Position numbers and translations under genes: made by a program. Positions 552 through 31,717 of a stretch of 32,310 nucleotides of DNA are shown in pieces (the stretch's first letter is position 1; each line of letters starts with the position of its first letter). This DNA is from a virus. The notes under the pieces are model-generated. The model saw nothing but the letters and a program-made list of their open reading frames with translations, was not told the origin of the DNA and made no database searches. Where the stretch lies: IMG/VR virus record IMGVR_UViG_3300003319_000043, positions 1-32,310 of that record. One strand, written 5' to 3'.

Positions 552-760
552 TGGACTGGAACAAAGAACCGCGTAGCGTTGTCGAGCGTGCTGCCGCAAA
601 AGGCGACGAGGGAGCAATCGCCTGCCTTCGGCTGCATCAACGCCTAGACGGTGTTGACTCGGCAGTCGATGGTCTCCGTATCGAGTTGACCGGATTCAAT
701 GAGCGACTCACGTCGCAGATTAACGATCTACGACAGAAGATCGTGAGTCGACGCGAATGA
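548..760 (+). CDS. small coiled-coil protein between the terminase subunits
   Basis: A 70-residue protein coupled by ATGA overlaps to the genes on both sides, which supports that it is translated. Two adjacent ATG codons (548 and 551) are available as starts. Residues about 30-65 have hydrophobic heptad spacing and probably form a short coiled coil (VDGLRIELTGFNERLTSQI). No family is recognised. Its place between small and large terminase suggests an accessory packaging role, but that is inferred from position only. Confidence 0.6.
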   Translation: MMDWNKEPRSVVERAAAKGDEGAIACLRLHQRLDGVDSAVDGLRIELTGFNERLTSQINDLRQKIVSRRE

Positions 761-2406
761 TCCTCACCGTCCCGCGCGACCGCACGTTCTACCCAACACT
801 CGGGCCGCAGGTGTGCGACTTCATCGAGCAGAACATGGTTTACGGCCCCGGCGATCTGCGCGGGCAGCCCGTGCGCCTTGACGATGAGAAGGTCGCGCTC
901 ATCTACCGCATGTACGAAGTCTATCCACGCGGCCACCGGTTCGAAGGCCGCCGGCGCTTTAAGCGCGTCGGCATCTCGCTGCGCAAGGGCGTCGGCAAAA
1001 CGGAGCTGGCCGCCTGGGTCGCCGCATGCGAGCTCCACCCAGACGCCCCGGTGCGCTGCACGGGCTGGTCAAGCAGCGGCGAACCGATCGGCGGCCCGGT
1101 GACCGACCCCTACATCCCGCTCGTGGCGTACAACGAAGTCCAGTCGTCCGAGCTGGCGTACGGCGCGCTCAAAACGATCCTCGAGGAAGGGCCGCTCAAG
1201 GACGAGTTCGACATCGGGCTCGAGCGCATCATGCGGAAGCGCGGCGGCGGGAAAGCCGAATCGCTCGCCGCGGCGCCGAACGCTCGCGACGGCGCGCGAA
1301 CGACCTTCAGCGTCATGGACGAGACGCACCGGATGACGCTGCAGCGGCTCCGCGATGCGCACCAGACGATGATCAACAACAACGCGAAGCGCATGCTGGC
1401 GGACCCGTGGATGCTCGAGATCACGACGGCGCCGGAGCCGGGCGCCGGCTCGGTGGCCGAGGCGACGATGCAGTATGCCGAAGCGGTCGAGCATGGGCAG
1501 GTCGCCAATCCGAGCTTCTTCTTCTTTCATCGGCAGGCGAGCGACCATCACGATCTGACGACGGCCGAGGGTGCGCGCGCCGCGGTCGTTGAAGCGTCTG
1601 GCCCGTGCGCCGTCTGGAGCGACATCGAGGCGATCGTCGCGATCCTCGATGACCCGGCCACCGATCGCGCGTATTGGGAACGCGTCTGGTGCAATCGGCT
1701 CGTGAAGGGCTCAACACAGGCGTTCGACGTCGAGCTGTGGCGCAAGGGGCTGCTGAAAGAGAATCCCGTCCAGCCGGGCGACCTCATCACGATCGGGTTC
1801 GACGGCGGGCAATTCCACGACGGGACCGGCGTTGTCGCGACGCACGTCGCCACCGGCTATCAGTGGGTGCCCGGCGCGTGGGAGTGCCCGCCAGGCGGCG
1901 AGAAGCGAACGCCACCGTGGCAGGTGCCGACCGCGGACGTCGACGCCTGCGTGCGGCGACTCTTTGCGACGTTCAAGGTCTGGCGCATGTATGCGGACCC
2001 GCCGTACTGGCAATCGTGGATCGCGCAGTGGGCAGGCGACCTCGATCGCGATCGGCCCGACAGCGAGAAGCGCATCATCGAATGGTGGACGAACCGCACG
2101 AAGCCGATGACGTTCGCGCTGGAGAATTTCGACACGGCGATCAAGACCGGCCAGATCCGCCACGACGGCGATCAGCGGCTGGCGCGGCACATCGGCAACG
2201 CGCGAAAGAAGGAGCTGCCGCAGCGGAGCGAGGACGGCAAGGTGCTCTGGCTGATTCAGAAGGATCGCCCCGACTCGCCGCAGAAGATCGATAACTGCAT
2301 GGCGGCGGTGCTCAGTTGGGAGGCGCGCACGGATGCGATTGCCGCGGGCGTGCTGTCGGAGAAAGAGCCGCAGTTTCAGATGATGATCATGGGAGGCGGA
2401 CGATGA
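757..2406 (+). CDS. terL: terminase large subunit
   Basis: A 549-residue packaging motor with an N-terminal ATPase and a C-terminal nuclease. The Walker A loop is at about 76-83 (RKGVGKTE), and the Walker B with catalytic Glu at 184-189 (FSVMDE). A coupling TTAP motif follows at about 223-226. The nuclease domain begins near 345 (IGFDGGQFHDGTG, with metal-binding Asp349) and continues with a YADPPYW segment near 410 and an HDGD-containing segment near 465. It translocates genomic DNA through the portal into the prohead and cuts the concatemer. The length is normal for the HK97/P22-type large terminases. The start overlaps the stop of the preceding gene. Confidence 0.95.
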   Translation: MILTVPRDRTFYPTLGPQVCDFIEQNMVYGPGDLRGQPVRLDDEKVALIYRMYEVYPRGHRFEGRRRFKRVGISLRKGVGKTELAAWVAACELHPDAPVRCTGWSSSGEPIGGPVTDPYIPLVAYNEVQSSELAYGALKTILEEGPLKDEFDIGLERIMRKRGGGKAESLAAAPNARDGARTTFSVMDETHRMTLQRLRDAHQTMINNNAKRMLADPWMLEITTAPEPGAGSVAEATMQYAEAVEHGQVANPSFFFFHRQASDHHDLTTAEGARAAVVEASGPCAVWSDIEAIVAILDDPATDRAYWERVWCNRLVKGSTQAFDVELWRKGLLKENPVQPGDLITIGFDGGQFHDGTGVVATHVATGYQWVPGAWECPPGGEKRTPPWQVPTADVDACVRRLFATFKVWRMYADPPYWQSWIAQWAGDLDRDRPDSEKRIIEWWTNRTKPMTFALENFDTAIKTGQIRHDGDQRLARHIGNARKKELPQRSEDGKVLWLIQKDRPDSPQKIDNCMAAVLSWEARTDAIAAGVLSEKEPQFQMMIMGGGR

Positions 2407-2603
2407 CGAGCCGTCTCGAACTCAAAGTAAAAGAGTTCGCTGAGCGCGAACGCGTGACCGAAAGAACAGTTTACGCGTGGATCGCGAAGGGCGCGGTGCA
2501 AGTGCGCCGCACGCCGGGCGGTGGTCTGCGGATCCTCACGCCACAAGACGAGGCCGATGATCAACTGAAAACGGCGGAAGAATTTAGAAGGGCTTCCCGG
2601 TAG
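2403..2603 (+). CDS. small MerR/excisionase-type HTH protein
   Basis: A 66-residue protein starting at an ATGA overlap with the terminase stop. A longer in-frame start at 2316 would lie inside terL and is unlikely. Residues 10-45 (VTERTVYAWIAKGAVQVRRT) form the winged helix-turn-helix of the HTH_17/excisionase class, with a PGGGLRIL wing. It may be an excisionase-like factor or a regulator. It sits directly before an inverted repeat and the capsid gene, so autoregulation of capsid expression is possible, but this is inference. Confidence 0.75.
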   Translation: MTSRLELKVKEFAERERVTERTVYAWIAKGAVQVRRTPGGGLRILTPQDEADDQLKTAEEFRRASR

Positions 2604-2621
2604 TCTCTATACCACTACCGG
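2597..2621 (+). promoter_or_regulatory. 8-bp inverted repeat before the capsid gene
   Basis: CCGGTAGT (2597-2604) is perfectly complementary to ACTACCGG (2614-2621) across a 9-nt loop. The left arm overlaps the TAG stop of the HTH gene. No T-run follows, so it is not a standard terminator. A second, imperfect pairing (GTGTCCC near 2622 with GGGGCACAC near 2640) could cover the ribosome site of the capsid gene. It could be an operator, an mRNA processing or stability element, or a translational control hairpin. Confidence 0.5.
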
Positions 2622-2648
2622 TTGTGTCCCTACTCTGGTGGGGCACAC

Positions 2649-4658
2649 ATGGCCGGGCAGCGGGCGTACGCCGTTCTGAACGTCAAGGCGATCGACGCCG
2701 AGCAGCGCGTCATTACCGGCATCGCCACGACGCCGACGCCCGATCGCATGGGCGACATCATCGAGCCCGACGGGATCACGTTCAAGAATCCGCTGCCGCT
2801 GCTGCTCTATCACGACTCGCGGCGCCCCGTCGGCACCGTCAAGCTCGATAAGCCGACCGCCGACGGCGTCACCTTCACCGCCAAGATCGCCGACATTGCC
2901 GAGCCCGGCACGCTGAAAGATCGCGTCGACGAGGCGTGGCTCTCCGTCAAAAACAAGCTGCTCCGCGGCGTCTCGGTCGGGTTCCGCCCGCTGAATGACG
3001 CGATGGACTGGATGCAAGACACCGGCGGCATTCGCTTCCGCGAGACGGAAATCCTCGAGCTCTCGCTCGTCGCCGTGCCCGCCAACGTCGAAGCCACCAT
3101 CAGCAGCATCAAGTCGTACGACCAGGAACGGCCCGCCGCGACAGGCACTGGCCGTTCGGTCGTTGTTCGCACCACACCCGCCGCCGGCGCCCCGGCCCCT
3201 GCCCGGAAGGACCGGGACATGAAAACGATTCAGGAACAGATCGCCTCATTCGAGGCCACGCGCGCGGCGAAGTCCGCCGAGATGGCCGCGATCATGACAG
3301 CCGCCGGCGAGAAGGGCGAAACGCTCGACACCGCCGACTCCGAGAAGTACGACGGCCTCGCGCTCGAAGTGAAGTCGCTCGACGCGCACCTCGCACGGCT
3401 GCGCGACATGGAAGCGCTGAACGTGCAGAAGGCCGCCCCGGCGGACGGCAGCGATCCGCAAAAGGCGGCGCAGTCGCGCGGCGCGGCGTCGCACACGATC
3501 CGCACGGTCGAGAAGCTCCCGCCCGGCATCGGCTTCGCACGCGCGGTCAAGGCGTGCGTCGTCGCGCGGCTCGATGGCCGCAACATGCTCGACGTCGCGA
3601 AGGAGATGTACCCGAGCGACAACCGTCTGCACGGGCACATCACGCACGTGCTGAACCTGCCGAACGTGGTCGCACAGATGAAGGCGGCTGTCCCTGGGGC
3701 GACGACCACGAATACGACCTGGGCGAGCGCGCTCGTCGATCCAACGAACCTCGCCGGCGAATTCATCGAATATCTGCGCCCGGCGACCATCATCGGCAAG
3801 TTCGGCACGAACGGGATCCCCGATCTGCGCCGCGTGCCGTTCAACGTCCGCATGATCGAGCAGACGCAGGGCGGCACCGGTTACTGGGTCGGGCAGGGTG
3901 CGCCGAAGCCCCTGACGGCCTTCGGCTTCGCGCCGGTCACGCTCGCCTTTACGAAGGTTGCAGCGATCTCGGTCATCACCGAGGAACTCGCCCGCTTCTC
4001 CAGCCCCTCAGCCGAGCAATTGGTACGCGACGGTCTGCGCGATGCGCTCGTGGAGCGCATCGATCGCGACTTCATTGATCCGGCGGAAGCCGGCACGGCG
4101 AACGTGCAGCCCGCCTCGATCACGAACGGCCTGACAGCCGGTTCGTCCGCAGGCACCAGCGCCGACAACGCGCGCACCGATATCGCTGGCTTGGTGGCCG
4201 ACTTTGTCGCCGCGAATCAGGATGTCGCGGGGCTCGTGCTCATCATGCCGGCGTCGCTGGCGCTCGCGCTGTCGTTCCAGGTGAACAGCCTCGGGCAGCA
4301 GCAGTTCCCGAACCTCTCGCTGGCCGGCGGCACGATCAACGGCATCCCCGTGATCACGACGCAGTATGCGGCCAACGAGTCGGGCGGCGGCAACCTCGTG
4401 ATCGCGGTGAACGCGCGCGAGATCTTCCTGGCGGACGACGGTCAGGTCACCGTCGACGCCTCGCGCGAAGCCTCGCTGCAGATGCTCGACAACCCGACCA
4501 ACAACTCGGCGACGGCGACCGCGACCACGATGGTCAGCATGTGGCAGACCAACTCGATCGCGCTACGCGCCGAGCGGTTCATCAACTGGGCGAAGCGCCG
4601 GTCGACGGCCGTCGTGTACCTCGACGACGTCAACTGGGGCAGCGTCGGCAGCCCATAG
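2649..4658 (+). CDS. fused HK97-type prohead protease and major capsid protein
   Basis: A 669-residue fusion. Residues 5-155 are a prohead protease of the U35/S78 type: His55 (YHDSRRPVG), Ser109 (LLRGVSVGF) and Glu134 or Glu137 (ETEILEL) fit the expected catalytic set. A Pro/Ala linker (178-187) leads to Met191, where a classic capsid protein begins: a coiled-coil delta domain (about 192-250), then the HK97 fold to the end. The protease should remove the delta region during maturation. The chosen start at 2649 follows a GGTGGGG ribosome site; an upstream in-frame ATG at 2622 lies inside a hairpin and adds nine unconserved-looking residues. Protease and capsid are usually separate genes, although fusions are known. 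Confidence 0.93.
   Translation: MAGQRAYAVLNVKAIDAEQRVITGIATTPTPDRMGDIIEPDGITFKNPLPLLLYHDSRRPVGTVKLDKPTADGVTFTAKIADIAEPGTLKDRVDEAWLSVKNKLLRGVSVGFRPLNDAMDWMQDTGGIRFRETEILELSLVAVPANVEATISSIKSYDQERPAATGTGRSVVVRTTPAAGAPAPARKDRDMKTIQEQIASFEATRAAKSAEMAAIMTAAGEKGETLDTADSEKYDGLALEVKSLDAHLARLRDMEALNVQKAAPADGSDPQKAAQSRGAASHTIRTVEKLPPGIGFARAVKACVVARLDGRNMLDVAKEMYPSDNRLHGHITHVLNLPNVVAQMKAAVPGATTTNTTWASALVDPTNLAGEFIEYLRPATIIGKFGTNGIPDLRRVPFNVRMIEQTQGGTGYWVGQGAPKPLTAFGFAPVTLAFTKVAAISVITEELARFSSPSAEQLVRDGLRDALVERIDRDFIDPAEAGTANVQPASITNGLTAGSSAGTSADNARTDIAGLVADFVAANQDVAGLVLIMPASLALALSFQVNSLGQQQFPNLSLAGGTINGIPVITTQYAANESGGGNLVIAVNAREIFLADDGQVTVDASREASLQMLDNPTNNSATATATTMVSMWQTNSIALRAERFINWAKRRSTAVVYLDDVNWGSVGSP
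3205..3221 (+). promoter_or_regulatory. ribosome site and internal start for a separate capsid protein
   Basis: GGAAGG (3205-3210) lies eight bases before an in-frame ATG (3219-3221), exactly where the protease-capsid linker ends and the capsid delta domain begins. Initiation here would give a 478-residue free capsid protein alongside the fusion. This would supply the excess of capsid over protease that prohead assembly needs. The site is visible in the sequence; its use is inferred. Confidence 0.5.
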
Positions 4659-4664
4659 TCCGTA

Positions 4665-4919
4665 ATGCTGAAAACCTTGATCGCGCTCACGTCGTTCACC
4701 TTCGAAGGTCACCCTTACGTGCCCGGCGAGGTGTTCGACGTGACGCCGATCAAGGCGCTCGCGCTCACCTACAACAAAAAGGCGAAGTTCGCGCCACCCG
4801 GCTACAAGCGGCGTGACATGGAAGCGGAGAAAACTCCGGTGCCGCCGCCGCCGAGCAAGCCCGCACGCACTCCGCGCCGCCGCTATCGACGCCGCGACAT
4901 GGAGGCCGAGCGGGACTGA
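4665..4919 (+). CDS. small protein with Pro/Arg-rich tail
   Basis: An 84-residue protein between capsid and portal. Residues 1-46 look like a small beta-rich fold (FTFEGHPYVPGEVFDVTPIKA) resembling short SH3-like phage proteins that begin by describing a required or extended value, such as DUF7210; this family call is tentative. The rest is Pro- and Arg-rich and carries the heptapeptide RRDMEAE twice (about 49-55 and 76-82), showing a small internal duplication. Its stop overlaps the portal start by one base. It may be a capsid or portal accessory factor. Confidence 0.6.
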   Translation: MLKTLIALTSFTFEGHPYVPGEVFDVTPIKALALTYNKKAKFAPPGYKRRDMEAEKTPVPPPPSKPARTPRRRYRRRDMEAERD

Positions 4920-6295
4920 TGGACATCTTCGGCTTCACCATCACACGCACGAAAGCGCCGCCCGGGCAACTCTCGTCCGTTGAGAGCCGCGGCGGCTGGT
5001 GGCCGATCGTGCGCGAGCCGTGGGCCGGCGCGTGGCAGCAAAACATTGAGATCGATCTCGCGAACGTCCTCACACACCCGGTCGTCTTCGCCTGCGTCAC
5101 GGCCATCGCGAACGACATCGCGAAGTGCCGGCTGCGCCTCGTCGAGCTCGATGACGATGGCATCTGGACCGAAAAGAACGTCCCGGCGTACTCGCCTGTC
5201 CTGCGTCGGCCGAACCGCTACCAGATTCGGATCAAGTTCGTGCAGTGCTGGCAGATCAGCCGCCTGGTGCACGGCAACGCCTACGTGCTGAAGCAGCGCG
5301 ACCAGCGCAAGGTGGTCACCGCAATGTATGTGCTCGACCCGCAGCGCTGCCGGCCTCTCGTGGCGCCGGACGGTTCGGTCTACTACGAGCTGAAGCGCGA
5401 TCACCTGTCGCAGCTGCAGGACGAGCAAGTCGTTGTCCCGGCGTCGGAAATCATCCATGACGTCATGTATCCGCTCTATCACCCGCTCGTCGGCCTGGGG
5501 CCGATTCACGCGAGCGGGCTCGCCGCAGTGTTGGGCCTGCAGATCCAGACACAGTCCGCCAATTTCTTCGCGAACGGCAGCAGCCCGGGCGGCGTGCTCA
5601 CGGCCCCGGGCGAAATCACCGACGCGACGGCGCAGCGCATCAAGGCGTACTGGGACGCGAATTACACCGGCAACAACGTCGGCAAGGTAGCGGTGCTGGG
5701 TGACGGGCTGAAGTACGAGCCGATGGCGGTGACGGCGCAGCGCGCGCAGCTGAGCGAGCAGTGGGACGCGGCCTCGCAGGCGATCGCGACGGCCTATCAC
5801 GTGCCCGGCTACAAAGTCGGCGGCCCGTTGCCGGCGTACAACAACATCGAAGCGCTCGCGCGGCAGTACTACACGCAGGCGCTACAAGAGCCATTCGAGT
5901 GCATGGAAGCGCTGCTCGACGACGGCCTCGGACTCGGCCCCGAGTTCGGGAATCGCTACGGCACCGAGTTCGACCTCGACGATCTGTGGCGCCTCGATTC
6001 GGCCACGCTGACCGATACGCTCGCGCAGCAGACCGGCGCCGGCATCGCGGCGATCAATGAAGCGAGGAAGAAGCTGAATCTCCGACCAGCCAAGGGCGGC
6101 GAAGAGCCGATCCTCCAGCAGCAGAATTGGCCACTGTCGCAGATTGCCGAGCGCGAGCCGCCCGATATTCCCGATCGCCCTGACAACGACGAGCCGCCGA
6201 TGGATGACGACGACAATCCGCTGGAGGACGACGCGACCGCAGAGAAGTTCGCGGCCGCGCTTTTCAGGAAGATGGCGGACCTCCATGCAGCCTGA
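4919..6295 (+). CDS. portal protein, HK97 family
   Basis: A 458-residue portal. It has the family's typical opening (LTHPVVFACVTAIANDIAKC at about 51-70), the central region including HDVMYPLYHPLVGLGPI (about 180-196), and a region after the clip with VPGYKVGG and an alpha-helical crown (AYNNIEALARQYYTQAL). It forms the dodecameric ring through which DNA enters and to which the connector binds. The C-terminal 50 residues are acidic and Pro-rich, probably disordered. The gene lies after the capsid gene, whereas the order terminase-portal-protease-capsid is more usual. Confidence 0.92.
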   Translation: MDIFGFTITRTKAPPGQLSSVESRGGWWPIVREPWAGAWQQNIEIDLANVLTHPVVFACVTAIANDIAKCRLRLVELDDDGIWTEKNVPAYSPVLRRPNRYQIRIKFVQCWQISRLVHGNAYVLKQRDQRKVVTAMYVLDPQRCRPLVAPDGSVYYELKRDHLSQLQDEQVVVPASEIIHDVMYPLYHPLVGLGPIHASGLAAVLGLQIQTQSANFFANGSSPGGVLTAPGEITDATAQRIKAYWDANYTGNNVGKVAVLGDGLKYEPMAVTAQRAQLSEQWDAASQAIATAYHVPGYKVGGPLPAYNNIEALARQYYTQALQEPFECMEALLDDGLGLGPEFGNRYGTEFDLDDLWRLDSATLTDTLAQQTGAGIAAINEARKKLNLRPAKGGEEPILQQQNWPLSQIAEREPPDIPDRPDNDEPPMDDDDNPLEDDATAEKFAAALFRKMADLHAA

Positions 6296-9439: not shown

Positions 9440-10356
9440 TGCCGGTTCACGGTCGGAGCACCATCTTCCGCGTCACGGCGCCGCGCGTATTGAGCGCCCA
9501 GACATCCGATGTCGTCGTCGGGCTGACAGGGGTGTCAAGCGTGGTGGCGGTCGGCCTGCTCGGTGTCGCACTCGCGACGGCGCTGACAGGCGCGGGCGCG
9601 ACGAGCGCGGTCGGGAATGAGGCGGTCACGCATAGTCAGGCGCTCACGGGTGTGAGCGCGACCACAGCACCGGGCGCGGTCGCATCGTCACGCACGCGCG
9701 CGCTGACTGGTCTGGCGGCGACAGCTGGCGTCGGCACGACCATACCCTCGCGAACGATCGGCGTGACGGGGCTCGTGGCCGACTCGGCATCCGGGAGCGT
9801 GGCGGTCTCGCATACCCAAGCGGTCTTGAGCGCAAGCGCCACCGCCGCCCTTGGCTCGATCGAGTCGTCACGCGCGCGGGCGCTCACCGGACTCGCGGCC
9901 ACGTCCGGTCTGGGAGCGGTCCCGCCCTCACGAGCGGTAACCGTCACCGGACTGGCCGCGAGCGTTGCGCCCGGCAGCGTGGCGACTTCTGGCGGCGATA
10001 CGTCGGACGTGACGCGGCCACTGTCGGGGATCGGCGCGACCGGCGCGATCGGCATGCTGACGGCCGAGATCGTGGCCACGCCAGCCCCGCAACCGTCGCT
10101 CGGCGGGCACTGGTCGGCGGCCTCGGTCGAGTCGCTCTTCAAGCCTGTTGATTTCGGTCCGGTCCCTACGCGCGCCGCCCTACGCGGCACGCAACTCCGC
10201 GCGCGCGTCGGAAGGGTGCAGATGTCCCGCGCGAGCGGCTTAGCCGGCGCAACGACAGTCGGCGCCGTCGGCCAACTCGCGCCGTCGCAGATCTCGACGA
10301 TCGCGCAGACCCTGCTTGAAGACGACGCGCTGCTGGTGACGATGGGAGCGATCTGA
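9439..10356 (+). CDS. 20-residue-repeat fibre-like protein
   Basis: A 305-residue protein starting at a TAATG overlap. Residues about 28-200 consist of eight or nine copies of a 20-residue unit of the form ALTG--AT---G----S---. Repeats this regular, with Gly and Thr at turns, suggest a beta-solenoid or fibrous rod. The C-terminal 100 residues are non-repetitive (LFKPVDFGPVPTRAALRG) and may hold a cap or attachment domain. It is probably a virion fibre or decoration. The repeat number is likely to vary between relatives. Confidence 0.65.
   Translation: MPVHGRSTIFRVTAPRVLSAQTSDVVVGLTGVSSVVAVGLLGVALATALTGAGATSAVGNEAVTHSQALTGVSATTAPGAVASSRTRALTGLAATAGVGTTIPSRTIGVTGLVADSASGSVAVSHTQAVLSASATAALGSIESSRARALTGLAATSGLGAVPPSRAVTVTGLAASVAPGSVATSGGDTSDVTRPLSGIGATGAIGMLTAEIVATPAPQPSLGGHWSAASVESLFKPVDFGPVPTRAALRGTQLRARVGRVQMSRASGLAGATTVGAVGQLAPSQISTIAQTLLEDDALLVTMGAI
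9520..10074 (+). repeat. tandem 60-bp coding repeats
   Basis: Imperfect direct repeats with a 60-bp period encode the 20-residue units of the protein at 9439. The most conserved codons specify ALTG at the start of each unit and a Gly about eight residues later. One unit is extended by GGDTSDV near the end of the array. Divergence between copies shows the expansion is not recent. Confidence 0.7.
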
Positions 10357-10976
10357 TGTCCGCCGATATGGAACAGCTCGCCGGCCACGTGGTGTCTGCG
10401 TTCAAGACACTGCTTGATCCGCTGCTCGCCCGAATCGTCCAACTCGAGGCGCGTCCTGTGGCGCAGGAAGGTCCGCAGGGACCGACGGGCGCCGACGGCG
10501 CGCCAGGACCGATGGGGCCGCTCGGTCCGGTCGGTCCGCCGGGCGCACCGGGCGTGCCGGGGCGCGACGGGCGCGATGGCGTGCCGGGCGAGCGCGGTCT
10601 CGATGGTCAGCACGGAAAGGACGGCGCGCCTGGGAAGGACGGTGCCGACGGCTTGGGGTTCGACGATCTCGACGTCGCCTATGACGGCGCGCGCACGGTG
10701 ACGCTGTCGTTCACCCGCGGCGAGCGCGTGAAGACCTTTCCGCTCACGATGCCGATCGTGCTCGATCAGGGCGTCTACCAACAGGGCACCACCTACCAGA
10801 AGGGCGACGGGGTCACCTGGGGCGGCTCGTTCTGGATCGCGCAGGCCGAGACCGACGCCAAGCCAGGCGAGGGCGCGACGCCGTGGCGATTGGCGGTGAA
10901 AGCTGGTCGCGAAGGGAAGGCGGGTCGTGACGGCAAGGATTTGCGCGATGCACCAGTCGTGAGGGCGGTGCGCTGA
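10356..10976 (+). CDS. collagen-like protein with a sugar-binding-type C-terminal domain
   Basis: A 206-residue protein in three parts. Residues 1-38 are a helical segment shared with the protein at 6285. Residues 39-101 are 21 uninterrupted Gly-X-Y triplets (GPQGPTGADGAPGPMGP and onward), a collagen triple-helix stalk rich in Pro, Asp and Arg. Residues 102-206 include GVYQQGTTYQKGDGVTWGG, a motif of the type seen in CBM5/12-like domains that stack aromatic residues on polysaccharide. The whole suggests a trimeric virion appendage whose tip may bind glycans. It lies just before the gp6-type connector gene. Confidence 0.75.
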   Translation: MSADMEQLAGHVVSAFKTLLDPLLARIVQLEARPVAQEGPQGPTGADGAPGPMGPLGPVGPPGAPGVPGRDGRDGVPGERGLDGQHGKDGAPGKDGADGLGFDDLDVAYDGARTVTLSFTRGERVKTFPLTMPIVLDQGVYQQGTTYQKGDGVTWGGSFWIAQAETDAKPGEGATPWRLAVKAGREGKAGRDGKDLRDAPVVRAVR

Positions 10977-11296
10977 TGGCACTCATCACCATCGACCAAG
11001 CCAAGATGCAGCTGCGCATCACCGACGATGCCGCTGACAGTGATATCGCCATGAAAAGCGAGCAGGCCACGGCGATCGTGCTCGACTACCTGAAGAATCC
11101 CGACGCGGCGCAGCAATGGGAATCGGGCAGTCCCGGCAGCCCCGGCGGCGGAAGCCCGCTCGACGACCAGGCGCTCACGATCGTGCAGGCCGCGATCCTC
11201 ATGGTGCTCGAGCGCCTCTGGATGCGCGAAGAAACGATCCTGACCGATGGCGTCAAAGCGCTCCTGCACCGCCTGCGAGATCCCTCCTATGCGTAA
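10976..11296 (+). CDS. head-tail connector, gp6-like
   Basis: A 106-residue protein of the HK97 gp6 type. The hallmark opening ITIDQAKMQLRITDDAADSD is at 4-23, followed by a helix (IAMKSEQATAIVLDYL), a Gly/Ser-rich loop and a long helix (VQAAILMVLERLW). It forms a ring below the portal during head completion. The Gly/Ser loop (about 51-60, GSPGSPGGGSP) is a common variable region. Its partner adaptor (gp7-like) lies more than 5 kb downstream, separated by the glycosyl/methyl cassette. Confidence 0.88.
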   Translation: MALITIDQAKMQLRITDDAADSDIAMKSEQATAIVLDYLKNPDAAQQWESGSPGSPGGGSPLDDQALTIVQAAILMVLERLWMREETILTDGVKALLHRLRDPSYA

Positions 11297-11933
11297 CCAG
11301 CAACAGCGCACCTTCGTGCCCGTGACGCCGCTCTGGAAGAACGCGACGTGCGTCTGTATCGCGAGCGGACCGAGCTTGACGCCGGCGGATGTCGACTACG
11401 TCCGCGATAAGGCGCGCGTGATCGTGGTCAACAACGGCTACAAACTCGCGCCCTGGGCCGACGTGCTCTGGGCGACCGATGCGCGCTGGTGGCGCTGGCA
11501 CAAGGGCGCGCCTGGGTTCAACGGTCTGAAGTTCTCGCTGTCCGTCGGCGGGCTCAACCTACCGCGAGACGTGCATGTGCTCCGGAACGCGGGCTTCAGC
11601 GGTTGGTCAACCGATCCCGCGGCTGTCTACCACGGGAAGAATGGCGGCTTTTGCGCGACGCAACTGGCGGCCCATCTCGGCGCCAGCCGGGTGATTTTGC
11701 TCGGGTACGACATGCAGGCGACGAACAACCGTCATCACTGGCACGGCGAGCACCCGTACCACATGCCCAATCCGTATACGTCGTGGGTGCGCGCGTTCCG
11801 AGACAACGCCGAGCGGGCACGTTCGGCAGGACTGGAGATCGTCAATTGCACGCGCGAGACGGCCCTGACGATGTTCCCGCGGATGCCGCTCGAGCAGGCG
11901 CTGCCGGCGCAGCGCGATGAGGCCGTCGCGTGA
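11289..11933 (+). CDS. MptE-like / DUF115-type Rossmann protein
   Basis: A 214-residue protein starting at the ATG that overlaps the gp6 end by eight bases. It has a nucleotide-type opening (CVCIASGPSL, 21-30), then VIVVNNGYKLAPWADVLWATD (45-65) and a second core segment (NGGFCATQLAAHLGASRVIL, 118-137) ending GYDMQ. This is the pattern of proteins related to 6-hydroxymethylpterin diphosphokinase MptE, DUF115 and sialyltransferase-like folds, often found in phages beside sugar genes. It may activate or transfer a sugar, but the substrate cannot be predicted. It is the first gene of the cassette. Confidence 0.65.
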   Translation: MRNQQQRTFVPVTPLWKNATCVCIASGPSLTPADVDYVRDKARVIVVNNGYKLAPWADVLWATDARWWRWHKGAPGFNGLKFSLSVGGLNLPRDVHVLRNAGFSGWSTDPAAVYHGKNGGFCATQLAAHLGASRVILLGYDMQATNNRHHWHGEHPYHMPNPYTSWVRAFRDNAERARSAGLEIVNCTRETALTMFPRMPLEQALPAQRDEAVA

Positions 11934-12565
11934 AGGCAACCGCCGCCTGGGATTGGTCGGGCTTTCAGGGGAGCGCGCCAGCGCTGAAATATGCGCGCCG
12001 CGACCTGCCAAATCTGCGCGCGGTCATCAAGCTGACGCCGCGGCATCGCGTCTGCCTACAGGCCGGCGGCAATCTCGGCATCTGGCCGAAGGCGCTCGCG
12101 ACCGCGTTCGAATCGGTATTCACCTGCGAGCCCGACGCGGACAACTACGACAAGCTGCGCACGAACGCGCCCGAGAAGAACATTCACGCATATCCGTACG
12201 CGCTCGGTGAAACGAGTGGCGCCGTCGGCCTGTCGCGTGTGCGGCGCGACGGCAAGCCGACGAGCCATGAGGGCTGCGTGCATGTCGACGGCGCCGGAAC
12301 GGTGCCGATGGCGACGATTGACGAGTTCGAGTTGCCGGTTTGCGACCTAATTTATCTCGACGTTGAAGGCTACGAACTCTTCGCGCTCCGGGGCGCGCGC
12401 GCGACGTTGGCGCGCTGCCGCCCCGTGGTCGCCGTCGAGATCAACAAGCATCTGCGCTCATACGGCCTGACGGAGCTCGACGTGCTGACGTTCATGGAAG
12501 CCGCCGGCTACCGCTCCGGGCCGCGCGTTGGCTGCGATCAGGTGTTTCTCCCGGAGGCCGCGTGA
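11930..12565 (+). CDS. FkbM-family methyltransferase
   Basis: A 211-residue protein starting with GTG in a GTGA overlap. SAM-binding motif I is at 41-50 (VCLQAGGNLG), an acidic residue ends strand 2 (FTCEPDADN), and the FkbM signature LIYLDVEGYELFALRGA lies at 140-156. FkbM enzymes methylate hydroxyl groups, frequently on sugars of glycans or antibiotics. In this context a methylated virion or surface sugar is a reasonable hypothesis. The variant QAGGN in place of DVGAN is a small departure from the usual motif I. Confidence 0.85.
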   Translation: MKATAAWDWSGFQGSAPALKYARRDLPNLRAVIKLTPRHRVCLQAGGNLGIWPKALATAFESVFTCEPDADNYDKLRTNAPEKNIHAYPYALGETSGAVGLSRVRRDGKPTSHEGCVHVDGAGTVPMATIDEFELPVCDLIYLDVEGYELFALRGARATLARCRPVVAVEINKHLRSYGLTELDVLTFMEAAGYRSGPRVGCDQVFLPEAA

Positions 12566-13287
12566 AGACCGCTACCCGTTCTGCCGCCGACTATCAAGCC
12601 GCCTTCGAACAGGAGCGCGCGCAGTCGTATCCGGCGATCGACGCCTTTGAAGCGCGCATGGGCGCGATGGTCGACCGCGAGGCGCTCGAAGACGCCGCGC
12701 GCGTGCTTGCTTGCCCGCTCAAGGCGAATCCGCCGAACTGGCAGCACGGCCGCGTCATCTATGCGGTCGCCCGGCATGCGCTCCGGCGTGCCACTCTGTC
12801 CGGCGCGGCGCCCGTGCGCCTGCTCGACATCGGCACCGCGAAAGGTTTCTCGGCGCTGATGCTGCAATGGGCGCTGCGCGACGCCGGCATCTGCGGCCGC
12901 GTCGTCTCGGTCGATGTCATCGACCCAACCGAACGCGTCGCGCGCAACACGGTCGCCGAGGTGGACGGCCTGAAAACGCTCGCCGAGATGTTGGCGCCCT
13001 GGCGTGACGCACTCTCGATCAGGTTCGTGCGGAGCGAGGGGCGAATCTGGTTGACCGGACATCCCGAGCGCGTGCATGTCGCGGTGGTCGACGGCAAGCA
13101 CACGCACCAGGCGGTCAGCTGGGAAGCCGCCCTGTTGTCGACGCGGCAAGAGTCCGGCGATGTCATCGTGTTCGACGACCTGCAGATCCCCGGCGTCGCG
13201 CAGGCGGTCGGCGAGTTGGTCGGCTACGACATTGAGCGTCTCGAAGCCAAGCCCGATCGCGTCTACGCGATTGCGAGGAAACGCTGA
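12562..13287 (+). CDS. class I SAM methyltransferase, TylF/Methyltransf_24 type
   Basis: A 241-residue protein with a GTG start preceded by GGAGG. Motif I is VRLLDIGTAKGFSALML (85-101); strand 2 ends VVSVDVIDP (114-122); later come VHVAVVDGKHTHQAV (171-185) and DVIVFDDLQ (200-208), whose paired Asp residues suit a metal-dependent O-methyltransferase. Such enzymes often act on sugars. It is coupled to the FkbM gene before it and to the next methyltransferase-like gene. Confidence 0.8.
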   Translation: MKTATRSAADYQAAFEQERAQSYPAIDAFEARMGAMVDREALEDAARVLACPLKANPPNWQHGRVIYAVARHALRRATLSGAAPVRLLDIGTAKGFSALMLQWALRDAGICGRVVSVDVIDPTERVARNTVAEVDGLKTLAEMLAPWRDALSIRFVRSEGRIWLTGHPERVHVAVVDGKHTHQAVSWEAALLSTRQESGDVIVFDDLQIPGVAQAVGELVGYDIERLEAKPDRVYAIARKR

Positions 13288-13838
13288 TGGGCATTCTCGC
13301 TGAACCGGCCGCCTTCGTGCGCGCGCTGAAGCTCCCGAAAGGATTTTCCGTCTGCGAGCTCGGCGATCAGTGGGTGACGTACCAGCTCCCGCATTTACTG
13401 GCGCGCGATTTCTATCTCCAAATGGGCGCGAAGCGCTACGAGTCCATCGACGCGAACGGCCGCGGCTCCATCACTTTCGATCTCAATCGCAAATGGCACG
13501 GCAAGATCGGGCAGTTCGATCTCGTCACCGACTTCGGGACGGGCGAGCACATTTTCAACCAAGCCGAACTCTGGCGCACGCTACACGTCCTGACGAAGCC
13601 GGGCGGCTTCATCGCGTTCGATCGGCCCGCAGCCGGCTACAGCAATCACGGGTTCTACAACGTCCACGAGACGCTCTTCCATGATCTCGCGGACGCGAAT
13701 CGCTACCGCGTACTGCGGCTTGAGCGCCACCCGTCGACGCGCGGCGAGTTGCTCCGCGGCGTGCTGCAGAAGTCGTCCGGCGAAACCAAATTTCTCGCGC
13801 CGCAACAGGGGCGCTATCAGAAAGCGCTGCAGGTATGA
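13287..13838 (+). CDS. methyltransferase-like protein
   Basis: A 183-residue protein starting at a TGATG overlap behind GAGGA. The order of strands suits a class I methyltransferase: VCELGDQ (about 22-28) in place of motif I, YESIDANG (about 50-57), FDLVTDFGTGEHIFNQ (about 78-93) and a LTKPGGFIAFDRP segment typical of strand 5. The Gly-rich loop is weak, so SAM binding is uncertain. It may act on sugars with the neighbouring enzymes or be a degenerate copy. Confidence 0.65.
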   Translation: MGILAEPAAFVRALKLPKGFSVCELGDQWVTYQLPHLLARDFYLQMGAKRYESIDANGRGSITFDLNRKWHGKIGQFDLVTDFGTGEHIFNQAELWRTLHVLTKPGGFIAFDRPAAGYSNHGFYNVHETLFHDLADANRYRVLRLERHPSTRGELLRGVLQKSSGETKFLAPQQGRYQKALQV

Positions 13839-14116
13839 CGTTCGCGATCGTCTTCTCGGTCGTCCTATTGGCGCTGGCGTGGCTGGTGCGGATAATCCGC
13901 TGGGCGCCAAAGCCATACCCGCCTCCACCCTCCGGTGATTTCATCGCGATGCTGGAATGGGAAGCCGGTAATCCTAACCTGCATCCGGCCATCCGGCTCT
14001 CCGCAAGTACGGCGCTGTGCCGCCTCCACGAGCGCCGCTGCGAGGACGCTCGCATCCGCCAGATCCTTCGGGAGGAGATACTGGAGGCCGCAAGGCACGC
14101 GAGGCCGCGATGCTGA
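13835..14116 (+). CDS. small single-pass membrane protein
   Basis: A 93-residue protein with one N-terminal membrane helix (about 2-22, TFAIVFSVVLLALAWLVRII) and a cytoplasmic basic and helical tail. It is coupled by ATGA to the methyltransferase-like gene. No family is recognised. In a sugar cassette it could anchor the enzymes at the membrane, but this is inference. Confidence 0.55.
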   Translation: MTFAIVFSVVLLALAWLVRIIRWAPKPYPPPPSGDFIAMLEWEAGNPNLHPAIRLSASTALCRLHERRCEDARIRQILREEILEAARHARPRC

Positions 14117-14763
14117 CGGTCGCCTGCGTCTGGGTCGCCGCCAACGTGCCGTACGGCGTGGAGTACGTCACGAATCTCCGCGCGATGGTCGCGAAGCACC
14201 TGACGCGGCCGCACCGGTTCGTCTGCCTGACCGATCGCGCGGCGTATCTCCCGAGTGGGATGGAGACGCAACCGATCGCGCTGCGTGCCGACATCCCTGG
14301 CTGGTGGGCGAAGGTGCTGTTGTTCAATCGTGCGCGCGGACTGAGCGGTCGCGTGCTCTATCTCGACCTCGACACGCTCGTTGTCTCCGCGCTCGATCCG
14401 ATCGTCGACTTTCCGGCGCCGTTCGCGCTGATCCCAGACGCGGGCACGTTCAAGCCGCGCACCGCGCACCGAGTCATTAAGCGGTTCAATTCGTCCGTGA
14501 TGGTCTGGTCGGATTGCGCGGCCGATCGCCTCTACGACAACTTCAGCAGCGACGTGCCCGCGCGGCTCTGGGGCGATCAGGATTGGATCGGCGAGCAGAT
14601 GCCGGGCGCGGCGACGATGCCGCTCGAATGGTTCCCGCGGCTGTCGGAACTGCACGGCCAGCCGCCCGGCGCTGAGGCGAAGGTTGTGCTTGCGAAGAAA
14701 CCGAAGAACGTAGAGGCGGCGAAGCGCTGGCCGTGGGTGGCGGATGTCTGGAGGGCGGCATGA
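14110..14763 (+). CDS. glycosyltransferase-like protein, DxD type (copy 1)
   Basis: A 217-residue protein with a GT-A-type nucleotide-sugar fold. It carries RVLYLDLDTLVVSALDP (about 80-96), with the metal-binding DLD, then a FNSSVMVWS strand and a WGDQDWI segment near 156. These are usual in small GT8-like or related phage and bacterial transferases. It overlaps the previous gene by seven bases; upstream in-frame starts lie within it. A paralogue of the same plan is encoded at 15975. The donor and acceptor are unknown. Confidence 0.7.
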   Translation: MLTVACVWVAANVPYGVEYVTNLRAMVAKHLTRPHRFVCLTDRAAYLPSGMETQPIALRADIPGWWAKVLLFNRARGLSGRVLYLDLDTLVVSALDPIVDFPAPFALIPDAGTFKPRTAHRVIKRFNSSVMVWSDCAADRLYDNFSSDVPARLWGDQDWIGEQMPGAATMPLEWFPRLSELHGQPPGAEAKVVLAKKPKNVEAAKRWPWVADVWRAA

Positions 14764-15059
14764 AGGAATTGACGATCGGTCATCAGATGCGCAATCTCAC
14801 TGCCCTCGCCACGTTCCTGCTGTTGATGATGACCGCGACGGGTCCGTCAGCATCGACCTCCAGTATGAATAGCGTTCCGGCGGCGAACCCTTTCGGCGAG
14901 CCTATCTCCTCCAGCCGCGCCGAGTGCTTGGAATACGAGTGCCCATTCAATCTGTACAGCGAGGAGATTTGCTACGAGACTGGCGACGTGATTTGGGTGC
15001 CCTGTGGCACAGCCCGTTGCGACTTCGGCGTCTGGTTCCTGCAGTGCGAGGGTTGGTAA
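14760..15059 (+). CDS. exported Cys-rich small protein
   Basis: A 99-residue protein from an ATGA overlap. Residues about 11-30 (RNLTALATFLLLMMTATGPS) form a signal peptide core with small residues at a likely cleavage site near 32. An alternative start (Met10) gives the same mature protein. The mature part has six cysteines (56, 61, 71, 82, 87 and 96), enough for three disulfides in an oxidising compartment. Nothing in the rest is recognised. It is odd among cytoplasmic-type sugar enzymes and could be exported during lysogeny or act on the host surface. Confidence 0.6.
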   Translation: MKELTIGHQMRNLTALATFLLLMMTATGPSASTSSMNSVPAANPFGEPISSSRAECLEYECPFNLYSEEICYETGDVIWVPCGTARCDFGVWFLQCEGW

Positions 15060-15061
15060 AA

Positions 15062-15808
15062 ATGGGCCTCTGGTGTAAGGATCTGCCGTTCGTGACGGTG
15101 GCGTACCGCGGCACACCGCTGCCCGTCACGCTCATCGTCCCGTACTACGAACAGCCGATCTTCTTCGCGCGCCAACTCGCGCACTGGGCCAGCTACCCAC
15201 CGGCCATCGCGGACTACCTCTCGATCATCGTGGTCGACGACGGATCGCCCGAGCAGCCCGCGAGTGCCGTGCCGCGGCCGATCCTCCGTGACTTCCGCCT
15301 CTTTCGCATTCAGCGCGATGTCCGTTGGAACTGGCTCGCCGCGCGCAACATCGGCTTTCATCACGCTGCCGATGGTTGGTGCCTCGTGACCGACATGGAT
15401 CACGTGGTGCCGCACGAGACGCTGGCCGCCCGCATCTACGGCAACCACGATCGGCGCACGGCCTACGCGTTCTCGCGCATCGAGCACACGGGCGAACCGG
15501 CGACGCCGCACTCGGCAAGTTTCTTTCTCACGCGCGAGCTCTTTTGGGCCGTCGGCGGCTACGACGAGGCGCTGTCTGGCCACTACGGTACCGATGGCGA
15601 CTACCGTCGACGGCTCGCCCAGCACGCGCCGATGGCGGTCCTGCGCGATGTCCTCGTGCGGCACGAATATGTCGACGACTCAAGCACGACGCGGTATCTC
15701 AGGAAACAGCCAGAAGACGCGGCGGTGAAGCGCCTCGTACAGCAGCGACGTCCCGGCTGGCGGCCGAAGGTGCTCAGCTTCCCGTACGTCGAGGTGACAG
15801 CGTGCTGA
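15062..15808 (+). CDS. glycosyltransferase family 2
   Basis: A 248-residue GT-A enzyme. Residues about 22-60 have the family opening (LPVTLIVPYYEQ, then LSIIVVDDGSPEQP), a DxD-equivalent DMD at about 118-120 (CLVTDMDHVVP) and the acceptor-side segment GGYDEALSGHYGTDGDYRRRL near 166-186. It transfers a sugar from a nucleotide donor. The ATG at 15062 is chosen because it places the sugar-binding core near the N-terminus; an earlier in-frame start at 14924 lies inside the Cys-rich gene. There are no membrane helices, so it acts in the cytoplasm. Confidence 0.9.
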   Translation: MGLWCKDLPFVTVAYRGTPLPVTLIVPYYEQPIFFARQLAHWASYPPAIADYLSIIVVDDGSPEQPASAVPRPILRDFRLFRIQRDVRWNWLAARNIGFHHAADGWCLVTDMDHVVPHETLAARIYGNHDRRTAYAFSRIEHTGEPATPHSASFFLTRELFWAVGGYDEALSGHYGTDGDYRRRLAQHAPMAVLRDVLVRHEYVDDSSTTRYLRKQPEDAAVKRLVQQRRPGWRPKVLSFPYVEVTAC

Positions 15809-15978
15809 TTCTCTCTTGGGCTAGCCTGTTCGTCATTTTCGCGATTGCGCTGTGGACTCGATTCTCTCGCCCAGGGCTGACTGAGACAGAACTGCTGCTG
15901 ATGTTCTGGCCGCGCTGGCTGGTCCTCGTCATCATCGCGGTCACCCTGTTGGTCGTTGCGCGCAGGAAGGGGAAGTGA
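15802..15978 (+). CDS. small two-pass membrane protein
   Basis: A 58-residue protein with a GTG start overlapping the GT2 stop. It has two hydrophobic stretches (about 3-20, ILSWASLFVIFAIALW, and 36-53, RWLVLVIIAVTLLVVA) and a basic RRKGK end. It is coupled by GTGA to the next gene. No family assignment. It may help locate the cassette's enzymes at the membrane or act in lysis or exclusion; none of these is shown. Confidence 0.5.
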   Translation: MLILSWASLFVIFAIALWTRFSRPGLTETELLLMFWPRWLVLVIIAVTLLVVARRKGK

Positions 15979-16694
15979 CGACGCTGACCTTCGTGACGTG
16001 GCTCTGGAAACCGCCAGTTGGGTACCGCTCTGCGTTCGCGGCCGAGCACGTCAACGTCCTAGCGAACATGATCGATCGCCACTACACCGCGCCGCATCGC
16101 ATCCTCTGCGTGACCGACCTGCCGAAGGGCATCGACCCGCGCGTGCAGATCGTGTCGGCTTGGAACGACTACGCCGAACTCGGGAGCCCGCATGGCGGGA
16201 TCAACAAGAACCCGAGCTGCTACCGCCGGCTGCGCGCGTTCCATCCGGACATCGGGAAAGTCTTCGGCCGGCGCTTCGTCTCGCTTGATCTCGACACGGT
16301 CATCACCGGCGACCTGGTGCCGCTCTTCGATCGCCCGGAGGACTTCGTCATCTGGGGCGAGACGAATCCGAAGAGTTGGTACAACGGTTCACTGTGGATG
16401 CTGACCGCAGGCGCGCGGCCGCAGGTGTGGACCGACTTCAACCCGCGGCGTTCGCCGCACGACGCGAAACGCGCGGGACGGTTCGGCAGCGATCAGGGTT
16501 GGATCAGTCATTGCCTCGGCAAGGGCGAGGCGACATGGTCGGTGGCCGACGGCGTCTACAGCTACCGCGTGCATCTCAAGCCGAAGGGCAACCAACTGCC
16601 AGCGAACGCGCGCATCGTGAACTGTCACGGCGAGCATGACCCCTGGGATGCAGAGATGCAGCGGATTCCCTGGGTGAAAGAGCACTATCAATGA
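15975..16694 (+). CDS. glycosyltransferase-like protein, DxD type (copy 2)
   Basis: A 239-residue protein starting with GTG. It follows the same plan as the protein at 14110: an opening strand, PHRILCVTD near 41-49, FVSLDLDTVITGDLVPLFDRP near 97-117 and GSDQGWI near 171. The DLD motif is the likely metal and nucleotide-sugar site. It ends NCHGEHDPWD and PWVKEHYQ, features of sugar-transferase C-termini. It is the last gene of the cassette, directly coupled to the gp7-type adaptor gene, so the structural operon resumes without a gap. Confidence 0.7.
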   Translation: MTTLTFVTWLWKPPVGYRSAFAAEHVNVLANMIDRHYTAPHRILCVTDLPKGIDPRVQIVSAWNDYAELGSPHGGINKNPSCYRRLRAFHPDIGKVFGRRFVSLDLDTVITGDLVPLFDRPEDFVIWGETNPKSWYNGSLWMLTAGARPQVWTDFNPRRSPHDAKRAGRFGSDQGWISHCLGKGEATWSVADGVYSYRVHLKPKGNQLPANARIVNCHGEHDPWDAEMQRIPWVKEHYQ

Positions 16695-28992: not shown

Positions 28993-29276
28993 CCAAATTC
29001 ATCGAGTGGCTCGCCACGCTGAACACCGTCACCGTCACCGAAGCGATCCGGCAGGTGATTCTCTCGCTCGTCCTGTTCGAAGTCATTCGCTGGGATGAGC
29101 ATCAAATCGCCGGGTTCCTGATGGCGGTCTCGGCGGTGCTGGCGCTCTTCGCGCGCGGCACGACGGTGTCGCATGGCCGCGTCGAGCAGAAGGTGGATGA
29201 GAAGGTGGCGCTGCGCGAGATCGCCGGCACGACAGGCACCGCCGCGAACATGTCGCCACCGACGAAACAGGTATGA
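28989..29276 (+). CDS. putative holin
   Basis: A 95-residue protein; the ATG at 28989 overlaps the previous stop. Two hydrophobic stretches (about 20-37, IRQVILSLVLFEVI, and 42-62, IAGFLMAVSAVLALFARG) are separated by a WDEHQ turn, followed by a charged C-terminus. Size and topology suit a class II holin. Its place after the lysozyme-like gene supports a lysis role. The sequence resembles small phage membrane proteins often annotated as holins. Confidence 0.6.
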   Translation: MTKFIEWLATLNTVTVTEAIRQVILSLVLFEVIRWDEHQIAGFLMAVSAVLALFARGTTVSHGRVEQKVDEKVALREIAGTTGTAANMSPPTKQV

Positions 29277-29992
29277 AGCCCTACTACGAGCAGGACGGGA
29301 TCACGATCTACCACGGCGACTGCCGCGAGGTGCTGCCTGCGATGGCGTCGACGCGACTCGTTGTGACTGATCGGCCGTACGTGTTCGGCATCGCATCAAC
29401 AGCCCAGGAAGGCAAGGCGGGCGGCTGGGGCGACTTAATGAACAGTTCCATTTGGTACGAGTCGTGGCTGTCCGAGTGTAAGCGGCTCACGGAGACGGCG
29501 CAGGGTGCGGTGTGGGTGTTCAACTCGTGGCGGTCGTTTCCGGTTCTCGCGCGTGCGGCGTACGGCGTTCGCTGGCCGGTCGAATCGCTGTTGGTGTGGG
29601 ACAAGGAATGGATAGGCCCCGGAGGAGAGCGCGGACTCCGGCCGTCGTACGAACTCGCGGCGCTGTTCGCGCACTCCGATTTCGCCATCGCAAATCGCGG
29701 ACTGCCAGACATCTGGCGCAGTAAGTGGTCAAGCAACAAACCGAGCGGACACCCCGCAGAGAAGCCCGTCGATCTGTTACGGCGCATCATCCGCGAGAGT
29801 GGCGGCGGCCCAGTGCTCGATCCATTCGCCGGTAGCGGGTCAACGCTCGTTGCAGCGAAGGATGAGGGACGGGCGGCCGTCGGTATCGAGATTGAGGAGC
29901 GCTACTGCGAGATTGCGGCGCAGCGTCTGGCCCAGAGGGTGCTGTCGTTTGGTGAACCGCGTTCGATTTGGGAAGGCGAAATTACTGCATGA
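29273..29992 (+). CDS. DNA methyltransferase (amino-group type) with altered catalytic motif
   Basis: A 239-residue beta-class N4/N6 methyltransferase. The N-terminal IYHGDCREVLPAM (12-24), the HPAEKPVDLL motif (160-169), and motif I VLDPFAGSGSTLVAA (181-195) with GIEIEERYCEIAAQRL are all standard. The catalytic motif IV, normally D/S/N-P-P-Y, reads TDRPY (32-36): a single CCG-to-CGG change would explain the Arg. The enzyme may be inactive, regulatory or of shifted specificity. It is coupled to the lysis genes and probably guards phage DNA or marks it during late infection. No cognate nuclease is visible. Confidence 0.85.
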   Translation: MKPYYEQDGITIYHGDCREVLPAMASTRLVVTDRPYVFGIASTAQEGKAGGWGDLMNSSIWYESWLSECKRLTETAQGAVWVFNSWRSFPVLARAAYGVRWPVESLLVWDKEWIGPGGERGLRPSYELAALFAHSDFAIANRGLPDIWRSKWSSNKPSGHPAEKPVDLLRRIIRESGGGPVLDPFAGSGSTLVAAKDEGRAAVGIEIEERYCEIAAQRLAQRVLSFGEPRSIWEGEITA

Positions 29993-30631: not shown

Positions 30632-31717
30632 TCAACTTGCCTGCTTCGCCTTCACTCGCGCCGCCACCGTCGCCATCCGCCGATCGACCGCCCCGCGCAC
30701 ATACCGCCGCGTCGTCTCCAGATCGGCATGCTGCGCGTAGTGCTGGACGAGCAACAAATCCTCCGTCTCGCGCCATAACCACGAGAGGAACGAATGGCGC
30801 AGATCGTAGACGCGGAGATCGCCGGGGAGCGCCACCGTACGGCCCGCCGCGCCCTCCTGCGCCACGTAGCGGCGCACGGCGGCATGGAAGGACCGGCCCA
30901 GGGCACGCTGATCAAAGCGGCCCCAGGCGAACGCTCGCAGCCAGGCGCGGCACGCCAGCACCCCGTACGGGAAGAGCGGCACGGTGACGGACTCGGCGCC
31001 CTCGCCCTTCAGCCGCGGTGGCAACGTCAGCGTTTCGCGCGCGAGATCGATCCGCTCCGGCCGCAGTCGATGCAAGCTCGCGGGCGTGATGCCGGTGCCG
31101 AGCATCATCATCAGCCGCGCCTGTGCTTTGTTTTTGAAGCCGCGACCGCCGCGCCCAGGATGCCGGTGCGTGCGGTGCGTGTCCATCGTGGCGAGGATCG
31201 CGGCAAGCACGTCGACATCGATCGCGCGCACTTCGCCTTGCGGCTCGCGCGGCGTCTTGATCGCGCGCGCGGGATTCGGTGCCTCAGCGCCGTCGAGCGC
31301 GTCGTAGAGCTGCGCCAGCGCGCGCCGCCGGTGCTTCACGGTGCTGACCGCCACGCCATCAGCGATCCAGTCGTTCACGACGGTTTGCAGGCGCTCGATC
31401 GTCAAGCGGCTGCGGCGGACGTCGCCGAGCACCTCGAGCCACGCGGCGAGATTCGACGCAACATCTCGCCGCGGGCGCCCCGGGGGAAGCGTCTCGAGAT
31501 ACTCGAGCACGTCGCCTTGCAGCGTGCCCTGTGTTTTGCGCCGACGATCGCGCCGCTTGCGAAACTCGCTTTTCGTTGAGTCAATCCAGGCCTGGATCTC
31601 GCGCACGCCGCGCGACCGCGGAAAACTCTTTTCGCGCCGCAGCGTGCCCACCTTGGCGATCGCGATGCGCACGCGATCGTCTTCCCAGATGTTCGTTGCG
31701 ATGCGGACGCGGGGCAT
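30632..31717 (-). CDS. int: tyrosine integrase
   Basis: A 361-residue recombinase. Residues 1-55 form an arm-type DNA-binding domain, about 65-155 the core-binding helical domain, and 170-355 the catalytic domain. Visible catalytic residues are Lys237 (RLKGEG), Arg307 and His308 (YDLRHSF), His330 (QHAD) and the nucleophile Tyr339 (TTRRY). The first catalytic Arg, normally in a TG-x-R context, is absent: the segment reads LGTGITPASL (206-215), with Thr211 in its place. Tyr304 stands in for the first His of HxxR. It should integrate the phage at tRNA-Arg(CCG). It directly follows a small membrane gene (stop and start abut). Confidence 0.9.
   Translation of the reverse strand: MPRVRIATNIWEDDRVRIAIAKVGTLRREKSFPRSRGVREIQAWIDSTKSEFRKRRDRRRKTQGTLQGDVLEYLETLPPGRPRRDVASNLAAWLEVLGDVRRSRLTIERLQTVVNDWIADGVAVSTVKHRRRALAQLYDALDGAEAPNPARAIKTPREPQGEVRAIDVDVLAAILATMDTHRTHRHPGRGGRGFKNKAQARLMMMLGTGITPASLHRLRPERIDLARETLTLPPRLKGEGAESVTVPLFPYGVLACRAWLRAFAWGRFDQRALGRSFHAAVRRYVAQEGAAGRTVALPGDLRVYDLRHSFLSWLWRETEDLLLVQHYAQHADLETTRRYVRGAVDRRMATVAARVKAKQAS

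Follow-up and report, generated by a model that had tools for sequence, protein, structure and literature searches.

The window analysed here is the whole of a viral DNA record of 32,310 nucleotides (IMGVR_UViG_3300003319_000043). Its frame at 2649-4658 holds an S78 protease and an HK97-type capsid protein in a single reading frame, and phrog_617 matches it over residues 4-663 (E 9e-154). A large terminase gene (757-2406) and a small HTH gene lie upstream of it, and the portal gene (4919-6295) lies downstream. The parts of the fused gene are the following:

2649..4658, + strand: gene for prohead protease, scaffold and major capsid as one fused protein of 669 aa, a single open frame (the PAJU2 orthologue is likewise annotated as a fusion)
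2790..3116, + strand: S78 protease domain, residues 48-156 (Pfam PF04586)
3093..3218, + strand: disordered linker, residues 149-190 (pLDDT < 50)
3219..4658, + strand: putative nested frame for a free scaffold-capsid protein, 479 aa, from ATG 3219 (sequence, alignment and Shine-Dalgarno pairing)
3228..3431, + strand: predicted delta (scaffold) domain, with long helices at residues 194-221 and 228-261 (AlphaFold model)
3744..4622, + strand: HK97-fold shell domain, residues 366-658 (Pfam PF05065, Phage_capsid)

The order terminase - protease/capsid - portal across 757-6295, with the portal after the capsid, is common to PAJU2, SP-016 and JLK-2012.

An earlier note on this DNA had claimed that a complete S78 protease is fused in frame to a complete capsid protein. 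The in-frame fusion holds, with both Pfam matches inside frame 2649-4658; the capsid is also present, and its description is refined here to a scaffold (delta) domain plus a shell domain. H55 and S109, which we take to be the catalytic His and Ser of the S78 protease, are invariant in all 39 aligned fused proteins. In the AlphaFold model of the fused protein (mean pLDDT 74.7, pTM 0.50), pLDDT stays below 50 through the linker and reaches 77 for block 191-200, so that order begins at about residue 191. The two long helices that the model places after this point, from residue 194 onwards, are as expected of a delta/scaffold domain, and the location of ATG 3219 at the domain boundary, as the earlier note had it, is thereby confirmed. 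The best solved match to the modelled shell domain is HK97 prohead I (8fqk; VIA-align, Z 16.3, rmsd 3.4, 255 residues).

The protease-capsid fusion itself is of an already known kind, given the phrog_617-type match and the annotation of the PAJU2 gene product as 'prohead protease fused capsid protein'. PAJU2 and its Salmonella and Escherichia relatives (phrog_617) share the full-length architecture with the window, at 44-46% identity over 99% of the protein. A tblastn search with the fused protein matched 797 phage records, in 27 of which a single place covered 80% or more of the query. The NCBIfam model for protease/capsid fusions, NF045541, scores only 39 bits against a curated cut-off of 525, and hence the protein is not a member of that family. 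PAJU2, SP-016 and JLK-2012 carry, like the window, a Met in the column of residue 191; unlike the reading developed here, their records annotate one product and leave an internal start unmentioned.

ATG 3219 is codon 191 of the fused gene, and the GGAAGG that ends eight bases ahead of it, already pointed out in the earlier note, is confirmed. Shine-Dalgarno (SD) strength was taken from how well the 16S tail pairs with bases -18 to -4, and the null was obtained by random recoding with each gene's own synonymous codons. The two start signals of the gene are:

2637..2643, + strand: SD-like GGTGGGG before start ATG 2649 (pairing -5.5 kcal/mol, start region MFE -21.5)
3207..3211, + strand: internal SD core AAGGA, begun inside GGAAGG (3205-3210), which pairs with the 16S tail and ends seven bases before ATG 3219

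Among the 16 in-frame ATGs of the window gene, SD pairing is strongest at 3219 (-5.7 kcal/mol), followed by 2649 and then by a site at -5.0. The value at 3219 is only moderate, a little stronger than its own synonymous null (-4.8), and the internal start region is more structured than its own null (folding energy -13.2 versus -11.4). Judged from the sequence, the more structured upstream start (-21.5 versus -13.2) would favour the free capsid, yet the two SDs are alike. In the window, AAGGA also makes up the five loop bases of a predicted hairpin at 3202-3216, with CCCGG/CCGGG as its stem. The stability of this hairpin does not exceed that of shuffled sequence for the region (z -0.14), and on visual inspection it is not kept in the relatives L003, L125, L115 and L002; it could be a protein-binding regulatory element or a product of chance.

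Relatives were gathered from viral contigs, bacterial genomes and phage records, which gave 193 sequences with a capsid match (window included): 145 in which one frame encodes both protease and capsid, 38 with several frames, and 10 without a protease match. The last 10 were left out of the counts, as were three multi-frame loci, namely L146 (in-frame TAGs), L084 (decayed) and L108 (rearranged). Removal of near-copies at 90% identity reduced the fused genes from 145 to 111 and the split genes from 35 to 31; these homologues share ancestry, and the counts below are not independent observations.

In a first alignment of 16 fused proteins, Met 191 was invariant amid a highly variable linker. A plain Met-column alignment over 183 proteins had to be discarded: it found M in only 66, as the start shifts by a few codons. 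The search was therefore anchored on a conserved 'AEQI' motif and confined to the 8 codons before it, a choice made after the alignment had been seen. So defined, the boundary holds a start codon in every one of the 111 non-redundant fused genes, ATG in 103 and GTG in 8, whereas ATG occurs in 10.5% of ordinary 8-codon stretches of the same genes. Wherever ATG is missing, GTG takes its place (10 of 10 genes; 8 fused, 2 split). With GTG as the sole substitute, what is kept is the identity of a start codon and not methionine. Conservation of an ATG alone is nevertheless no proof of a start, because a second Met further downstream is conserved too (ATG 13-22 codons past the anchor in 99/111); that ATG mostly lacks an SD, and it is the SD that discriminates.

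Over the 111 fused genes, the internal start has a mean SD of -7.30 kcal/mol, compared with -5.45 for the synonymous null (300 sets, whose means have an sd of 0.19 and a lowest value of -6.12). A strength of -4.4 or better is reached in 95 of the genes, with 67.9 expected, but at only 19% of the 1652 other in-frame internal ATGs and at 12% of 161 Met codons located 12-23 codons past the anchor. The remaining 16 fused genes fall short of -4.4. They include L003, the nearest relative of the window, in which the SD is almost absent (-0.1), and L115, in which it is weak (-3.2); the ATG is kept in both.

The split relatives bear on the same site. In 35 of the 38 multi-frame loci the break falls between protease and capsid, in the linker region, the others being L146, L084 and L108. 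All 31 non-redundant split loci have a capsid frame with ATG (29) or GTG (2) at the boundary site, which is the first ATG, GTG or TTG of that frame in 26 cases; an earlier start codon is present in the other 5. The capsid start overlaps the protease stop by four bases in 11/31 (10 ATGA, 1 GTGA), and gaps of 0 to 260 bases separate the two genes in the rest. The SD at the boundary reaches -4.4 in 23 of the 31, and thus the corresponding sites in the fused genes resemble genuine gene starts. In the annotation of Moraxella phages Mcat5, Mcat7 and Mcat9, two genes meet at this boundary. On a tree built by a quick method from the capsid part alone (142 rows), there are 17 changes between fused and split, against 28.3 with shuffled labels; well-supported branches force at least 12 of the 17. 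The tree indicates that the two forms have repeatedly replaced each other, and such switching fits best if the capsid can start at the internal site.

A few loci depart from this simple layout. Besides the linker split, L029, L103 and L109 have a break or truncation within the capsid part; in L029 and L103 the frames overlap at this additional break in the capsid gene, for which sequencing error, decay or frameshifting may account. In L146 (2908-5103), the protease frame and the capsid frame are each interrupted by an in-frame TAG, and a downstream frame has three more; reading TAG as sense opens all of them. L146 is possibly a TAG-recoded phage, or else decayed.

The folding energy around the internal start (-30 to +21) averages -8.16, compared with -14.23 elsewhere in the same genes, and it is weaker in 105/111. 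However, synonymous recoding of the region yields nearly the same value (-8.86 versus the real -8.16; the gain is small, 64/111, p 0.03). We therefore gave low mRNA structure little weight as extra evidence, since it mostly follows from the residues encoded. Upstream and internal starts were compared in 107 genes, 4 of the 111 having no assigned upstream start. The mean SD is -6.39 or -6.75 upstream and -7.33 at the internal site; the two starts thus have similar values, and SD strength was not accepted as proving an excess of capsid. Structure is stronger at the upstream start (-12.39 versus -8.14), the internal one being the less structured of the two in 84/107.

Taken together, these data make it very probable that the gene yields two proteins. 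Ribosomes starting at ATG 2649 would make the full protease-scaffold-capsid fusion, while those starting at ATG 3219 would make the free scaffold-capsid protein. HK97-type assembly is established, and it serves, together with lambda C/Nu3, as the model for the steps that may follow. By this analogy, fusion and free capsid would co-assemble through their common capsid part, each procapsid would receive a limited number of capsid-tethered proteases, and the protease would then free itself by cutting and remove the scaffold (delta) domain. The earlier note had proposed that the internal site could make free capsid in excess and so set the protease-to-capsid ratio. The supply of free capsid is well supported at the level of sequence, by start codons in 111/111 fused genes, an SD stronger than the synonymous null and split genes that begin at the same site. 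The proposal of an excess fares less well, given how close the SDs are, although the lower structure of the internal start in most genes points in its direction; from HK97-type assembly, a surplus of capsid over fusion is plausible.

A different account would have only the fusion translated, with all capsid derived by proteolytic cleavage in the linker. The open frame and the linker that the model predicts to be disordered are compatible with it, and HK97-type proteases are described as trimming capsid N-termini in the part of PMC8508860 that was available. We nevertheless consider it quite improbable: cleavage leaves unexplained why a start codon, GTG substitutes included, and in most cases an SD should be kept in a very variable region of the protein, and the 31 non-redundant split relatives have a separate capsid gene that starts at this very site.

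About as small a chance is given to the idea that SD and Met serve no initiation at all, being either a relic of formerly separate genes or a site of ribosome pausing that aids domain folding. The interconversion of fused and split forms would suit a relic, as would the variation in SD strength, with an SD all but missing from a small number of fused genes, L003 among them. A relic should decay, yet the large fused groups hold strong internal SDs that are spelled differently from group to group; a pausing site would not require a correctly spaced start codon, nor would ATG be replaced by GTG there. The least probable account, to which we give hardly any credence, is that free capsid comes from the same ATG but mainly on a shorter mRNA begun inside the protease region, as in herpesvirus UL26.5: the same protein would result and hosts may use other promoter types, but sigma-70-like promoters numbered 0 in 2400-4700 on both strands (0.2 expected by chance).

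Initiation at two sites on one mRNA, the reading preferred here, has a close counterpart in lambda C/Nu3, a pair of nested genes in which an in-frame internal start yields the C-terminal assembly protein alone. Both systems have an N-terminal protease and an in-frame, SD-preceded start downstream of the protease domain, here at the level of sequence. In lambda, however, the nested product is a scaffold without a capsid domain and the capsid protein E has a separate gene, whereas the nested frame of the window comprises delta and capsid. The protease families also differ, S78 in the window versus S49 for lambda C; the available part of PMC10695390, from which the latter assignment comes, lists C and nu3 as separate essential genes.

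HK97 shares with the window an S78-type protease (gp4) and a delta-domain capsid protein (gp5), the latter being the fold match given above, but it encodes the two as separate genes. The HK97 portal precedes the protease, while in the window it follows the capsid. Gene 5 comes directly after gene 4 according to the portion of PMC8508860 available.

The same portion describes MD8 gp5, in which protease, scaffold and capsid share one gene, without an internal start. An internal ATG after the protease domain is nonetheless present in 13/13 non-redundant MD8 relatives, as in the window, although the protease is ClpP-type and the capsid Phage_capsid_4 / Mu gpT-like, that is, of other Pfam families. 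In a scan of conserved start-codon columns, the annotated start came first and the post-protease ATG second. Its mean SD is -6.59, compared with a synonymous null of -4.76 (sd 0.68, lowest of 200 -6.68), and its mean folding energy is -5.64 versus -12.74 for the genes. SD alone fails to single out this site, because two more conserved Met columns have similar SDs of -6.12 (10/13) and -5.62 (13/13) and at least one of the 200 null sets reached the observed mean; those two columns are strongly structured (-17.2 and -16.0). The Gifsy-2 paper reportedly also speaks of a tripartite capsid gene of protease, scaffold and capsid.

PPpW-3 ORF5 (NF045541-like) agrees in its Pfam families and their order with the window protein, to which it is distantly similar (23.8% over 60%, E 7e-9); unlike in the window, the portal precedes the fused gene. 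The conserved-column scan found no internal start for this type. A filtered look sequence by sequence found, in 7/14 non-redundant relatives, an ATG that sits in a single column or the one next to it and was picked after the fact, and no such ATG at that column under the filter used in the other 7. The seven ATGs have SDs of -5.7 to -7.9 and weak structure, with a mean SD no better than the null (-6.54 versus -6.34).

At the level of sequence, the MD8 and PPpW-3 data suggest a general association of nested starts with protease-capsid fusions. We lean slightly towards the view that nested initiation is a general rule of such phage fusions, with an internal start between protease and scaffold in the S78 phrog_617 genes, in part of the PPpW-3 type and in the unrelated ClpP-type MD8 family. 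The protease would then enter the procapsid only as a minority of tethered subunits, and the linker would be free to gain or lose stops or frameshifts, because the internal start keeps the capsid supply independent of the fusion.

No description of an internal start in a protease-capsid fusion was found in the literature searched, including the available parts of PMC8508860, PMC10275583 and PMC10695390. How protease is dosed into the procapsid of tailed phages is a good question; a pair of start codons on the same mRNA could set this dose, and the naturally fused and split relatives offer a ready comparison. Databases name one long product, and the abundant protein may instead be the nested capsid. 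The JLK-2012 gene has a near match in 1245 of 5426 complete E. coli genomes, in up to seven places per genome, and among the matches listed for it, 38 of 40 were named only 'phage major capsid protein'.

Elsewhere in the window, a protein with collagen-like repeats (PF01391) is encoded at 10356-10976. It is followed at 11247-16694 by an enzyme block unusual for a head-tail module, with three methyltransferase-like proteins (FkbM, Methyltransf_24 and a weak Methyltransf_23), one glycosyltransferase of family 2 and a weak MptE-like match; two more proteins of the block match no Pfam family. The phage looks temperate, given a DNA methylase (PF01555) and a phage integrase (PF00589) near the right end, at 29273-29992 and 30632-31717 (minus strand).
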